Origin: Sitta carolinensis
Taxonomy: Eukaryota > Chordata > Aves > Passeriformes > Sittidae
Assembly (NCBI GenBank): GCA_032173965.1
Contig: CM063283.1
Span: forward strand, 79,982,743-80,046,742
Direction: 5' to 3'
DNA: 64,000 nt
The notes under the pieces are model-generated. The model saw nothing but the letters and a program-made list of their open reading frames with translations, was not told the DNA's origin and searched no databases. A program made the translations under genes and the position numbers. Below are positions 15,621 through 43,800 of the stretch, piece by piece; positions within the stretch are counted from its first letter, which is position 1, and each line of letters starts with the position of its first letter.

Positions 15621-15626
15621 TTTAAC
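15621..15626. repeat. target-site duplication, left copy (TTTAAC)
   Basis: Directly abuts the U5 end of the complete LTR and is identical to 16433-16438. Confidence 0.8.
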
Positions 15627-16214
15627 TGAAGTGCTGTCGCTTCAGCAAACCTTGCAAGTGACCCACAGGTGCAGAGTCCAAAACACACTTGCTAAAATAG
15701 CTAACGACAGAGGCAAAACACGGGTCTCAATGTGGAGATCCAAGAGCACTTTACTGACCTCAGGCAAATCCAGGGAAAAAGACAAGGGGAGAGGGGAGAA
15801 CACGGGGCTTTATATGGGAATGAGGGGGTGGGTCTGAGGGTCAAGGGCCAATGGGGGCAGGTAGAAGTGGTGTAGAGGAGGGGCGACCCTCCTCTACATT
15901 CAATGGGTTAGCGGGGGCAGAGCAAGGGGTGGAGTAATGCGGCAAACTGGGACCAAAGGGGTTCAGGGAAGGGGAGAACATTCTAGGGGAGGTACATATA
16001 AGGCAACTGGGGGTTGAACTAGGGTGAACAGGGCTGAACCAAGGCACTTTGAGTAGCACCAACTATGACAACCAATAAGATCCAACACATAAGCTTGTGC
16101 TTACAGAGACCTCATGGTAGAAGGCACTTCCCACTCCAGTCTCAGAGCGGTGTTCCTCCTGGTTTGATTTTTTCTTTCCAGTGCTGAACCATTTTTGCCT
16201 TTTGGTCTCCTACA
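15627..16214 (-). repeat. complete LTR (588 bp) of the chimeric insertion
   Basis: TG...CA termini, a TATA motif (CATATAAAG, minus strand, 15816-15808) and a poly(A) signal variant AGTAAA (15755-15750) about 55 bp further on give the expected U3-R-U5 layout. The plus strand at 15816-15840 has four closely spaced G runs. No family name can be assigned without a repeat library. Confidence 0.85.
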
Positions 16215-16242
16215 TCTCCCCCTTTTTTATTTACTAAAAAGG

Positions 16243-16404
16243 CTTTTGGCGCATGCCTGTAGTCCCAGCTGCCGGGGAGGCTGAGCCTGGCGGATCACTT
16301 GAGCCCAGAGTTCTGGGCTGCCATGTGCTGATGGCTGCTAAGGCTGCCATCAATATGGTGACTCACAGGGAGCTGTGGGACACCAGGTTGACTGTGGAGG
16401 GCTA
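16243..16404 (+). pseudogene. truncated 7SL (SRP) RNA pseudogene inside the LTR element
   Basis: The plus strand reads GCATGCCTGTAGTCCCAGCT, then GAGGCTGAGCCTGGCGGATC, TTGAGCCCAG, AGTTCTGGGCTG, ATCAATATGGTGA and CACCAGGTTG, in 7SL order. Coverage runs from near nucleotide 10 to about 190 of the roughly 300-nt RNA, with a gap in the central part. It thus includes the 5' Alu-domain arm and part of the S domain and lacks the 3' third. It is not a working SRP RNA gene. It lies between a retroviral polypurine tract and a copy of the LTR start, antisense to the retrovirus. Confidence 0.88.
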
Positions 16405-16432
16405 AACCATTTTTGCCTTTTGGTCTCCTAAA

Positions 16433-16438
16433 TTTAAC
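16433..16438. repeat. target-site duplication, right copy (TTTAAC)
   Basis: Directly abuts the 28-bp LTR-start stub on the far side of the 7SL segment. It shows that the whole chimera was integrated in one event. Confidence 0.8.
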
Positions 16439-36800: not shown

Positions 36801-37867
36801 AAACATTAATACTTCTGAGATCTCAAGTACATTTGACCTTCTCCAGTTCTGCTGAAAAGAAATCAGGTAACTGTAGGAAAATTAATCTATTCATTTTCCA
36901 GGAAGGAAAAAGTGATGATAGCAAAGAAGAGAAAAGCAAGGACAGTATAACATCATTTATTCACTTTCACAATACCATTCAGTATCGTCTTTCCAATTAT
37001 TGCTGTTCATAGAATTAACTCTTTGGATACCGATAGTCATATTAAGGAATATGTTGCCAAGAAATGGGTTACTTTTTATTTATTAAAGTACTATTAAATG
37101 TTAAAACAGATACAAGAAACTTACCCACACTTTTACTCCTTAAAAAATTGGGAATTGTGAAACAAGATTTTATATGCTTAGGCTTAGGGAAGCACTGAAT
37201 AGAAAAGAACTTCTTCTGCTATACCTATCATGAATACATCTGGATGATATAAAAATTATGGCTTGAAGAATTCCTGTGCAATCACATGTCTCTGAAGGGC
37301 TCAGGAAGCTGCTTCATCCTGTGTTGCAATTCCTCATCCCAAAGTGACTAACCCCCTAACATGAATATAGATTTTACTGTTTAATACAGCTCCACAAACC
37401 ACATACTATTACCTTAGAAAAACAAACTCTGTTTTCAAATAATGGCAAGATGATAAAGGTGCATGATGGTGCACAAAACATTTAAAGGGCTGACAACAGC
37501 CTGCCAGCATAAATAGCGTGAGATTAAGCTGCAGGCACAGCCACAGCAAGCGCTGCAAAGATGCTGAGCTCAGTGAGCTCTTGTGTTAGGTTTGTTTGAT
37601 GCCACTTAGTTGAGGGAATGCAAGATCCTACAATACTTCAAAATCAAAAACTGGCACATAAAATGCATTATTGCCTCCATTTCACAGGTTTCCTACCCCG
37701 AAAAAACGGAAGGAAGGAAGGGAAGGGAAGGGAGGAAGGAAAGGAGGCAGGCAGGCAAGCAGGCAGCAGAGGCAGGCAGGAAGGCAGGCAGGAAGGCAGG
37801 CAGCAGGAAGGCAGGCAGGCAGGAAGGCAGGCAGGAAGGCAGGCAGGCAGGAAGGAAGGCAGGAAGG

Positions 37868-37898
<31 letters not shown>

Positions 37899-40800
37899 CA
37901 GGCAGGAAGAAGGCAGGCAGGAAGGAAGGCAGGCAGGAAGGAAGCAGGCAGGAAGGAAGGCAGGCAGGAAGGCAGGCAGGCAGGAAGGCAGGCAGGCAGG
38001 CAGGAAGGAAATTACTGGATTGTGAATAGGAATTCATGCAAACAATTGAAAGCCTGATTTGCATACATGACTAAGATGACTAAGATCTTATTATAAAAAT
38101 GACAGCCAATGTCCCAACAACCAAAACTTGCACTGACAAGGCTGTGTCATGAGCTTTTGAATACAAACTGTTAAAACCCTATCTAGCTCCAGTACTCTAA
38201 AATGGTGTCCTAGCTGAGCAGTGGCCTAGTTTTCTATGCCTCTTAGTGCTTCTGAGACCAACATCACTGAGTTTATTGTTTTCTCCTTGAATGACAGAAA
38301 AAGTGAGGGTTTTAGCTTCAGGATGGCTGGGTTTTCAAGGGTGGGGTGCTTTTTTGTCCAGCCTATTAAAATGAATGGGTACCTTCAGTCAGTACACTAG
38401 CAACAGAGTGATAAGTTAGCCATTTGTTTATACCACAATGAGTAGGAAAAGTAATACCCTGGGGCACTCCGATATTACTGCTAGGCCATGTGATTTTTGA
38501 GGCATTAGACTGAAGGCTGAGTAAGTTCTTTCAACCAAGTTATGCAGTAATCTTCCAGGAAATGCAATGTCTATTATGTCTTATTGCTATAATGAAATAA
38601 TTATACAAAACTAATGAAAATGAGACGTACTTAATAATTCTCTGGGTAAATCCATGACATAGATATGACAGAACTGACAGTGCATCAGAAAGCTCCATTT
38701 GTGCCCATAATTTTCAGGTAATAATTGCAACACAGCCATTTGTTCCACTACAATTGGTCTTCTGTGGATGTTTTTAAAAGCAGCACTAAATAATGAGCAC
38801 ATTTCCTCATTTAAGCCGAATATTTAAGCACGGTCATTTTTATGCTACACATTTTCACTGGAGTTACAAATAACTATCTTTCAACACATAATTTCATCAC
38901 TTTCACCATGGTAATATCTCACTGATTTCAGTGAGAAGTTTGTCAAAGTTAATATTGTTTAAGTGGGATTGCATTTTTATACATTGCCTAGCAAAACAGA
39001 GAAAGTGCCTATATTAAGCAATCTTTAAAACCAAAAATATCGTGGTTGGTATCTCCTGTAACTCTTACTTATATTTTCTAAAACTACTAATTAATATTAA
39101 TAATGCAGTGAATTCTTACTTAAGCTTCTGTGACCTACAACCTGTTTTATACACTACCATGTACCATAAAACTGGGAAGTGAGCATTAATTTATATTGGA
39201 TAAATTTCCATTTGCATTTTAAAAGTATTTGATCAGAGCATTTTTAAAACTGCCAGTATTTTAAAATCAGAAATTAAGAAATAATTACACTGGCAGACAT
39301 TACATGAAACAGTTATCAATCCTCCAGTTTTCAAGGAGGTGGCAGAAACATGTACAGGGACTAATCTTTTATCAGGACCTGTTGTGACAGGACGTGGGTT
39401 AATGGTCTTAAACTACAGAGCGTAGATTTAGACCAGGTATAGTGAATAAATGTTTTACAATGGGTGTTGTGAAACACTGGAATACAATGCCTAGAGAGGT
39501 GGTAGATGCTCCATACCTGGGAACAGAGGTCTGAGCAACCTGATCTAGTTCAAGATGTCCCAGCACACAGAATGGGGCTTGGACTAGATGAGCCTTAGAG
39601 GTCCCTTCCAACCCAATTATTCTATGATTCTGTGAAATAAGAAACACAAGCATCTAACTTCCTTGTAACTGAAGAAAAGCCAGCTATTTGCAGAATTTGT
39701 TCTATCACCTAATAACTGTGGATACTTGCTCGAGACTTCCGAAGTGCCCACGAGGCTAAATGAGATCCACAGGGCATAATATCACAATGACAAAACCTAA
39801 ACTAATGTAAATTGTTGTTACACTGCTGAGGTCTCAGCTTATTCTAACTGCTGATTCACATCGATTAACTTTACACATCATAAGTAATTTGAATCACTGA
39901 ACACAGTGGCTACCTCCAGATTTGCTTTCAGCCATAAAGCCCCCATCAGAAACTCACACAAACTTTGCACTGCTGCACAGAGGACTGCACAATGCACATT
40001 TGTTTTGCAAGCCAGGACCATGAAAAAGGATAAAATTCAAGACCATGCTAGTCTAGGTTTTACCAAAGAACTCTCCTAGCTACTGTATGGACATAGTAGG
40101 TATGTTTTCAGGAAAGGCATGTTTCACTTACAGGCCCTTACAGTAACCCCTGTGAGGAAACTACACTGACAAAACTAGCACCAAAGTGGCCAAAAGATGC
40201 TTCCTGTGAGAGTCCCTGGACCACCTGGAGCAACAGCTAGCCACGTCACACAGGATGCCTCATCTGCATCTGAGAACAGCTGTGTCACTGTACTCCTACT
40301 CCTGGCATAAGAAAACCCAAGGACAAGGACAACAGCACAGCACACCATCAGGGCTGGGAGCAGGAAACGCACCACAGTTTAGCTGCATGCAACTTCTAAT
40401 GGAAATACAGGACATGATACCGTGCACAAAAAAAGTGCCTTTTACAGGCACAGAATTACAATCAATGTGGTTTACACAAACCAAGGAAAAAAGAGACAGA
40501 GACCCTTTGGAAATCAGGAACAATGTTGAAAATATGTCGGAAAGAAATAATTCTCAGATAAAAATATACAAACCCATTCATATTCCTCTTAGTTTGCTTA
40601 TAATGTACAAGACAGCATGCAAAATAACGAACAATTATATTTAAAACAATGAATAACTGAAAGTTTGAACTTACATATGACGTAATAATCTTTGTTCTTC
40701 TGAAATTCCAGGCCCCAGAGATTAGGACTGAACTCTTGAAACTTGATGGTAAACTTAACATCTTGATCTGGCTTGGCACAGTTAAGTAGAGGTGTATTGT

Positions 40801-43800
40801 CCTTTTTAATAGCACAGCTATCTGCTTGGTCTTTATCAACCATGTAGACCTTATAATATTCATACTGGCCAATAGTTTTAGAGTCCACCTTTGGGCATAT
40901 AATATCCAGTTTGTCTCCTATCTGTGGATATAGTACCAATCCTTGTCCAGGAAGGAATCTAAAAGGAAGGAAAAAAACAGGGGGGATAGGGGAAGAGAAG
41001 AAAAGGTAAAATTTCAGACAATGAAATCTCATGCAGAAAAGTAGCAACTGCAGTGAACAGACAGGAATAAACACAGTTTCCAAAACCAAAATGACAGACT
41101 GAGCAAACGGAATATTAATAGTTTGGGCTTGTTTCAATATCAACAAGATGTTTATTTAGATCTTGGAAATTATAGATGGATTGAGCCATTTAGTCCTTAT
41201 CCCAGTTTTGGACACTGGCAGATTTTACACCTCCCTCTGGCAGGCACTGCTGTTTCTTGCACTGCATTTAGTCATGCAGAGCAGCTAATACAATACCTGG
41301 TGAGTTATTATTCTATTTTTCTGTTTTGCTAATATTTCTACCACTCTTGCACATTTCTTGCTAATTTTGGACATGGGAGAATGACAAAAATAACCTTTCA
41401 ACTCCCTTAACAGCCATGCGGGACAGGAAAAACTTAAGACTTTTAACAATATATTAACATGCTGATTGATATTTGTGCAACACAAAGGACCATCAGTCAC
41501 TCCAACTAAGACCATGCTTAGAGACCTGTGATGGACAGAGATCTACCTGATCCATGGACCACACATGCTTCTGGGAAAAATACTTATATCCAAGACAGTT
41601 GTGACCATTCCACTACAATGACTTCTCTTCACAAATTCCACCACTACTGTCATTATTTCAGCTCTTTTTTGATTTTGGTGCTAGTAGTTAAAGACAGGTG
41701 TGCTTTTTCCTTACACAACCTGGCAGTAAGATTTAAAATCTGAAGTTAGACATAGTATTTTGTCTTCCCTACTCATATTAATTAACAGGCAAACAAGACC
41801 ACTTCTTCATGGAAGAAAAATATAAATAATTACTTTTAGTATTGATTCACCCACAAAATGAGGAGTCATGTCCTCACAAGGACAAAAGCCAGAGCAGATT
41901 TGTTTGTTTCTCTCTCCATTAAGACATATTTGTTTCAATTAAGGCCAAGAAGTGCATGTTTTAGAACAGTAGCCAGAAACACAACCAATGTACTCAAATC
42001 CACAGACTTAAAAGACTGACTTTCTTTCCTCTTTTTTCCTGCCTGCCAGCATTTTCCAAAGATCTTCCTTACTGGAGAATCAGCTTGAAAAACCAAGTGA
42101 AACAATTCCTGCCTAATGAACACCCTTCTCCAAGTGCTAATATTTAAACAGCACACGTAGTAAATCTAGCTTATTCACAGGCAGACTTCCTGGAAACTTT
42201 AAATTAGAGTATCAAGGCCCACACAGAACAAAGCTGTAGACCTCGGTGACCTCCAACCTCTCGCTTGGCGAAAGGAGCCACCAGCATGAAGTACTGGTGG
42301 GGGAGAACTCACTAAATTAAAGGATGATGCAACGCCCCAAATATCAAATCCATCATTTACAACTGCTTGCTCCACACAGTTCAAGTTTATGATCTGTGCT
42401 AATTGAGCACGATTATTTTCACTCACAAAGCCAATGTAAGAATTATATTTGTTATGAAGCAGCACGTAGCAGGACAAAGACATGTAATTACAGATTTAGG
42501 GAACTAGAACAATGAAATGTTATGGCAAGAAAAGCGACTGTTGATGTATAAATCACTGTGCTCTTTTGTGCTGTGCAGTGTAATTTCCAGACTGCAGAAA
42601 CTGGGCTTGGCCACGGCTGTTCAAACTGAGATTGAAGTAGAGATGGGGCTGCACCTCAAAGCTGCACCACAAAGCTGCACCTCCTCCTCCAGTTTTCAGA
42701 CATGCCAAAGGAATTCAGTGACTACCACCTCCTGAAAGCTGAACTGGTCACAAAAATGGAAAGGTATGAATGCAACCTCAGAGTTACCAGCCTGGTGAAG
42801 GACAACCAGATGTGTGTGTAGATATGGCACCTAGGGATGTGGTTTAGTAGTGAACACAGCAGCACAGGGTTTACAGCTGGACTTGAATGATCTTACAGGT
42901 CTATTCCAACCTGAACGATTCTACAATTCCATGATTGAAGGAAAGGCTAGTTCTGCAAGGGTACAAAGAAAAGGCAGGGAGGAGGATCCCAGACAGCAAA
43001 TATTCCCAAGGGAGCAGCATGTATTGTGATTTTGGCTCTCCTTGGGGTTTAACTCTGACCAGGCAAAAGAAAGGGACAGAGTTTCCAAGCCAATCTGCAT
43101 CACCTGTGAGTGACTTTTCTACCTTGATGACCACTGTCCCATTTTAACTTTGTTCCTGTGCAGCACTGCTGTGTCAGGAAGATGACAATCACTCATATTC
43201 TCCCATCTGCATGCCAGGACAAAGGGGACAAAGGCTGGTCACTGTATGATCCCACTGCTGCAAATACTTCTCCTTGCCAGCAATTCTTCTTCTCATAACA
43301 GGACTGTGTAATAGGAAACACATGAGATTTCAAAGGACTGAATCTTTGCTTGTAAGTTAATCAATTTAGTTTCCCGTACATAACAATTCTTAAGGTTAGA
43401 TAAATGTACCTGTCCATCATTATCAATAATATAACCTAAAATCTGCCCTGATAAACAAAAGACACTCATTCTAATTTTAGACTTCGCATATATACATGGA
43501 AGAACCACAGTACATGTCCTCCATGCAAACTCTGAGCACAAACAGGATGGGTTTGGAAATAGTATGCCAGGCAATCCTCAGAAACAGCTGCAGGAGAGAA
43601 GGCACACTTGTGAGCCTTAGTTTCAGCCAGCAATTGTCCCATAAAAGGTAGAGGACAGAACCGTCCCCGACAGACAGTTAAAACTACATTTTATAAGAGC
43701 TTTAAACCAATGCACTTGTTAGACTTTATGGCAGGGAATATTCTCGCTATGACTCTGAAGTCTGTACAGTTTTAGAACTAAACTCAGTAAATCTCCTTCC

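Follow-up and report, generated by a model that had tools for sequence, protein, structure and literature searches.

An antisense 7SL RNA segment enclosed with a retroviral LTR in the Sitta carolinensis genome: a probable accident of plus-strand synthesis

How did a piece of a host RNA come to lie in antisense next to a retroviral LTR, inside one and the same target-site duplication? This question is raised by an element found in a 64,000-nt stretch of the 1.03-Gb genome of Sitta carolinensis, which was analysed as a whole and which we will call the window (C1:79982743-80046742). The element lies at 15.6-16.4 kb of the window, on the 3' side of an ephrin-B2 exon that is carried by the minus strand at 40598-41146 (Pfam Ephrin, with a PDB match to Ephrin-B2). 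The window also contains an AGGC/AGGA tandem repeat of about 300 bp, at 37708-38010.

Anatomy of the element and its junctions

In its viral orientation, which is that of the minus strand, the element starts with the beginning of an LTR, continues with antisense 7SL and with 33 nt of viral interior that include the polypurine tract (PPT), and ends with a complete 588-bp LTR (Table 1). Together, these parts fill 806 bp between a single pair of exact 6-bp TTTAAC duplications, as read from the sequence. The initial annotation had listed a complete LTR, a PPT, an antisense 7SL, the TTTAAC pair and a 26-bp block common to the full LTR and the LTR-start fragment; all of them are in the sequence, and the block is identical at 16187-16212 and 16405-16430. 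The second LTR copy, which had been given as 28 bp, is longer: diagnostic bases give it 31 nt, and the overlap allows up to 35. This LTR-start fragment runs from 16432 down to 16402 (or 16398), the 7SL then from 16401 to 16247, and the last 33 nt of the viral interior, with the PPT, from 16247 to 16215.

Both viral tips lie inside the one exact 6-bp duplication, which bears out the retroviral integration that had been annotated, and, with the LTR ends fixing the sites, such an exact duplication has a chance of 1 in 4096. This one integrase duplication encloses sequence of the host RNA together with that of the virus. The LTR is of the TG...CA type, and the far left terminus of the element reads TT, formerly TG; the TGTAG start is found in 38 of 40 printed LTR starts, in a count made by a script that searched for that motif. 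At LTR nt 33, a private change (1/40 LTR starts) sits in the full LTR and not in the fragment. The solo LTR of a betaretrovirus-like endogenous retrovirus (ERV) also consists of a single complete LTR with a 6-bp duplication, but there the LTR stands directly between the duplications, whereas here an additional left extension of 218 bp (16215-16432) separates the two. Neither interior sequence upstream of the 33 nt nor a primer-binding site is found in the element as read.

Table 1. Features of the element (positions in the window) and of the 7SL-bearing LTRs found elsewhere in the genome (positions on the contig named)
Feature	Position	Strand	Basis or content
Target-site duplication TTTAAC, U5 side	15621..15626	.	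Sequence reading
Complete 588-bp LTR, TGTAGG...ACTTCA	15627..16214	-	Sequence and 39 relatives
Polypurine tract AAAAAAGGGGGAGA, immediately before U3	16215..16228	-	Same tract in L009-L013, altered in L014
Proviral sequence upstream of the PPT, to the 7SL switch	16229..16247	-	Comparison with L009-L014
7SL RNA nt 12 to 176-179, antisense to provirus	16247..16401	+	Rfam, host-gene alignment
Junction overlap, LTR relatives against 7SL 10/11	16398..16408	.	Alignments
Partial LTR-start copy, nt 1-31 (at most 35 by overlap)	16402..16432	-	LTR comparison
Target-site duplication TTTAAC, U3 side	16433..16438	.	Sequence reading
7SL-bearing LTR L054	C1:9942809		7SL within nt 1-104
7SL-bearing LTR L055	C8:26590993		7SL within nt 1-104, some of first 20 nt missing
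7SL-bearing LTR L056	C7:20015804		7SL within nt 1-104
7SL-bearing LTR L057	C1:45031620		7SL within nt 1-104
7SL-bearing LTR L070	C11:31149630-31150400		7SL nt 43-108, first 42 nt missing

The source of the host segment is the 7SL RNA of this genome. The Rfam model Metazoa_SRP matches 16247 to about 16401 with 48.2 bits (E 4e-11), under the gathering score of 70 bits, at which there is no Rfam match anywhere in the whole window; the segment is only a part of the RNA, nt 12 to 176-179. In the genome itself, three 7SL loci on C11 score above gathering, at 228-239 bits, the highest being L002 (239 bits), which differs from L003 by one base across the aligned stretch. The element follows the L002 type and is identical to that gene at 137 of 153 aligned positions, apart from a 1-nt gap and a net 12-nt gap. 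Among the 16 differences, 11 are transitions at CpG sites, which leaves 5 differing positions in 124 non-CpG sites (4.0%). The alignment to the host gene thus agrees with the proposal that 7SL RNA served as template. The 7SL is cut at both ends, where it is joined to U3-tip and PPT sequence, and since its coverage starts at nt 12, copying ended 11 nt before the 5' end of the RNA.

At the first junction, the LTR side reads GGTTCAGCCCT in 26 of the 40 LTR starts and 7SL has GGTTCACCCCT, the two being identical at 10 of 11 positions, while the chimera has GGTTTAGCCCT. The base after GGTTYA comes from the LTR and the two after CCCT come from 7SL, so the switch occurred within CCCT (16398-16401). 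A microhomology of TGAACC had been annotated at this point; a short similarity does mark the first switch, but it extends to 10/11 and the chimera carries TAAACC. Similarity of this grade is found at 4 of 167,620 position pairs between 7SL and the window LTR, and at 6 of 166,460, 7 of 164,140 and 3 of 161,240 for L009, L014 and L013, that is, at a rate of 2-4e-5 of the position pairs. Each LTR thus offers 3 to 7 equally similar pairs, and by similarity nt 31-35 do not stand out among them. The junction 11-mer GGTTCAGCCCT (LTR strand) also recurs in the LTR at about nt 175 (window 16029-16041 and 16179-16191).

At the second junction, where 7SL is left at nt 12, the overlap is of 1 nt, at 16247. 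The sequence then follows the pre-PPT stretch of the relatives, with a few transitions by eye, and the likeness to the PPT stretch of L009-L014 stops where 7SL starts. The 33 nt before U3 match these relatives, as anticipated from a return just upstream of the PPT.

The LTR family, its copy number and the age of the insertion

The LTR was searched in its own genome and the best 40 of 217 candidates were scored, the window copy included. The other 39 are 81-87% identical to it, and many span the whole LTR. With one mismatch allowed, a 6-bp duplication flanks 24 of the 40 (18 exact), in a count which favours matches since it took, for each copy, the LTR end with the fewest mismatches; solo LTRs are thus common in the family. 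The PPT stands in front of the LTR in 6 of these 40 copies, our element being one of them. The relatives L009-L014 have the PPT stretch in common, five of them with more interior and L009 with only about 52 nt, and they confirm both the PPT and the sequence that precedes it. L013 has an LTR at both ends (97.5% alike) with an ATTACA duplication, and it carries, broken and in separate pieces, matches to Pfam RVP, zf-CCHC, RVT_1 and integrase, 2 of 7 pieces being without a family. Its integrase piece has 7usf/3jca as best PDB match, which we take to be mouse mammary tumour virus. L011 and L013 have a primer-site-like stretch after the 5' LTR, presumably tRNA-Lys-like. The relatives therefore combine a PPT at U3 with a primer site, protease, reverse transcriptase and integrase, and we favour the reading of the element as the remnant of an avian betaretrovirus-like (ERVK-type) ERV integration. 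A 22-base LTR pattern had no match in viral contigs, and there was none in phage records.

Two other members of the family deserve a mention of their own. L009 (C3:41848001-41857900), which consists of about 52 nt including the PPT and of one LTR, has 51-bp repeats, 96% alike, at 342-392 and 1027-1077 in place of the 6-bp duplication, and it might be a one-ended integration. The LTR copies L035 (C4:16257337) and L040 (C4:16195162) lie 62 kb apart with identical printed flanks, and probably stem from a segmental duplication in which the LTR was included.

A query made of the junctions spans both of them at only 1 of 14 matched places in the genome, the window itself, and just 1 of the 40 scored copies, again the window's own, has another LTR start in the upstream stretch of about 1-1.2 kb. 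The DNA search scores the best candidates only and skips very common words, which makes the single spanning copy a strong result, not an absolute one. A normal repeat uniting LTR and 7SL was rejected on these two counts, and of the two outcomes foreseen in the initial annotation, a one-off event or a repeated family, the single spanning copy speaks for the former and against the latter.

The LTR is closest to L014 among the 8 LTRs compared (88.0% identity). At sites outside CpG/TpG/CpA the two differ by 7.6%, about 3.8% a side, against the 4.0% of the 7SL, for which the mask was narrower (CpG) and the changes few. The similar decay of the two parts means that they probably arrived together, and the LTR and the 7SL seem, from these sequence comparisons, about equally old. 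At an assumed rate of 2-4e-9 substitutions per site and year, 4.0% would date the insertion to about 10-20 million years. The element looks like a one-off fossil that is not spreading.

The uptake of 7SL and its alternatives

Plus-strand synthesis sets out from the PPT, and U3 is its first product. The LTR-start fragment begins at LTR nt 1, which is the plus-strand start site, in agreement with the annotated start at the PPT. Had the minus strand switched to 7SL RNA, the captured piece would lie in sense to the virus; the antisense found here indicates that the switch took place during plus-strand synthesis. We propose that the plus strand, once primed at the PPT, was extended over LTR nt 1-31/35, and that its 3' end then annealed to a packaged 7SL RNA through the GGTTCA.CCCT similarity. 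On this template, reverse transcriptase would have travelled from about nt 176 to nt 12, close to the 5' end of 7SL, before a return to the viral minus strand 33 nt before U3, from where it would have gone on through PPT, U3, R and U5 to the primer site. The resulting over-long plus-strand strong-stop DNA could make the ordinary second transfer, and copying would yield a linear DNA with normal U3 and U5 tips and, before the 5' LTR, the extra U3 tip, antisense 7SL and PPT. Integrase would then have inserted this extended provirus with a 6-bp duplication, and the interior would later have been lost by LTR-LTR recombination, so that a solo LTR with the extension remained. We give this whole route, from the plus-strand capture of 7SL to the extended provirus and the formation of the solo LTR, a probability of roughly 60%. 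A full provirus with such an extension was not seen among the 40 scored copies (best 40 of 217 candidates).

The proposed route has consequences for the fate of the captured sequence. Transcription of the genomic RNA begins in R of the 5' LTR, so a block upstream of this LTR is not transcribed, is not inherited by new proviruses and founds no family. The copy number obtained with the junction query agrees with this inability to spread. The earlier suggestions of a small mobile unit and of the founder of a non-autonomous family therefore find no support, the block being outside the genomic RNA and the junctions being spanned at a single place.

MLV, HIV, RSV and others are listed with about 12 packaged 7SL copies per virion (PMC4997597). 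Reverse transcription has two obligatory transfers, a strand-displacement model has been put forward for plus-strand recombination, and avian retroviruses have a discontinuous plus strand (PMC3187697). The element is accounted for by known enzymology in an unusual arrangement. Hajjar and Linial (1993, cited in PMC4997597) described an experimental retroviral recombinant patched with 7SL, in which, like here, 7SL was copied into a retroviral product by reverse transcription; theirs is an experimental recombinant, whereas the window element is a germline fossil. In LTR-mediated retroposition (Tan and co-workers), reported also for chicken, a host RNA is joined to the cDNA of an LTR element at short similarities and integrated, a likeness to our element, but there an mRNA enters the growing cDNA, the first strand in our reading (PMC5408686), whereas the antisense 7SL outside the 5' LTR points to the plus strand. 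Among the matches listed in a literature search that covered few subscription journals, and apart from the works named here, no germline junction between 7SL and an ERV or LTR is reported in the text accessible to us; PMC4992247 and PMC2169234 name 7SL, and the parts available have no bearing on such junctions.

The same parts and junctions, and the same end product, could also result if the aberrant plus-strand product had been made double-stranded and inserted directly as a molecule of about 0.8 kb, so that a full provirus never existed at this site. The element as read, with no interior beyond 33 nt and no primer-binding site, suits this direct integration, but we reason that the opposite strand of the 7SL and of the U3 tip would then need a separate synthesis without the second transfer, whereas solo-LTR formation, its alternative, is common in the family (24 of 40 scored copies). 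Direct integration is thus possible, and in our opinion rather unlikely.

Break repair offers another path to the same structure. A provirus would have lost everything from nt 31-35 of its 5' LTR to the PPT region of its 3' LTR, the gap being patched by 7SL cDNA or DNA; short similarity also marks break repair. However, two breaks placed at random in a 7-kb provirus would both fall within 35 nt of the U3 starts with a probability of about 5e-5 (computed post hoc), and the similar decay of 7SL and LTR demands that the patch came soon after the insertion, which makes repair improbable. Finally, a 7SL retropseudogene made by a LINE, adjoining or inside a solo LTR, was rejected and is hardly conceivable: the 7SL query of the genome does find 9 places, which are the 3 genes, the window element and 5 other fragments, but the U3 tip beyond the 7SL already contradicts it, the 7SL is cut and joined to viral sequence at both ends, one outer 6-bp duplication encloses everything, and neither a target duplication nor an A-tail of its own was seen around the 7SL.

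An older LTR lineage with 7SL in sense

Another LTR of this genome, of which at least 5 old copies were found, carries, in sense and inside the LTR, roughly the first 100 nt of 7SL (L054-L057 and L070; Table 1). The non-7SL sequence on both sides is common to L054-L057 (62-71% alike), and no likeness among them was found beyond these shared flanks. The 7SL insert has the same junctions in the five copies. It is located about 43 nt from the LTR start, flanked by ACAGTAGCC-like and GGGGCATGGCC-like sequence, and by eye both of its edges bear some likeness to 7SL. A query with the L057 LTR, for which the best 40 of 412 candidates were scored, gave 42 matched stretches, nearly all of them after the 7SL. 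Five stretches were taken from these matches (L068-L072): besides L070, the related LTRs L071 and L072 share the LTR start and what follows it but lack the 7SL insert, and L068 and L069 have neither 7SL nor the LTR start. Rfam (E up to 0.1) recognises SRP RNA in 1 of 5 fragments, L054, at 28.3 bits and thus below gathering; the 7SL label of L053 and L055-L057 rests on BLAST (E 1e-9 to 1e-26). In a scan of L054-L057 for 5-bp duplications, with 0.26 matches per locus expected by chance, L054 and L055 each yielded a single match, both with one mismatch and an identical LTR end motif, L057 gave a likely chance match, and L056 gave nothing. Separately, L053 (C8:121285-121445) has 7SL nt 5-167 at 79% in GC-rich surroundings, and by eye it resembles L006, the divergent third 7SL locus.

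By its start motif, we take the LTR of the L054-L057 lineage to be ERVL-like. In our reading, an old LTR of this type acquired the 5' portion of 7SL in sense, perhaps while the minus strand was being made within U3, and handed it down to its descendants. On balance we think that the ERVs of this genome captured 7SL at least twice, once through the plus strand, in a dead end that left the extension seen in the window, and once earlier, in the U3 of an unrelated LTR, where it was inherited. TRIMp3 elements (Cassandra, Helenus, Ajax) also have small-RNA gene sequence joined to LTRs, as in the window element, but theirs lies inside the LTRs and is transmitted, whereas the window 7SL is outside its LTR; the same source mentions a TRIM family with 7SL sequence as a matter for speculation, none having been found so far (PMC10886601). 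The window element does not belong to such a 7SL-bearing LTR family, given the position of its 7SL and its single spanning copy. If our reading is true, L054-L057 and L070 would be the first 7SL-bearing LTR lineage.

The antisense orientation of the 7SL in the window and the break positions indicate which strand was growing when the template was switched, and make the element a readable accident of reverse transcription. It suggests that 7SL packaged in virions has reached the germ line through a retrovirus, and the same reasoning shows why captures of this kind are lost unless the transmitted part contains them.
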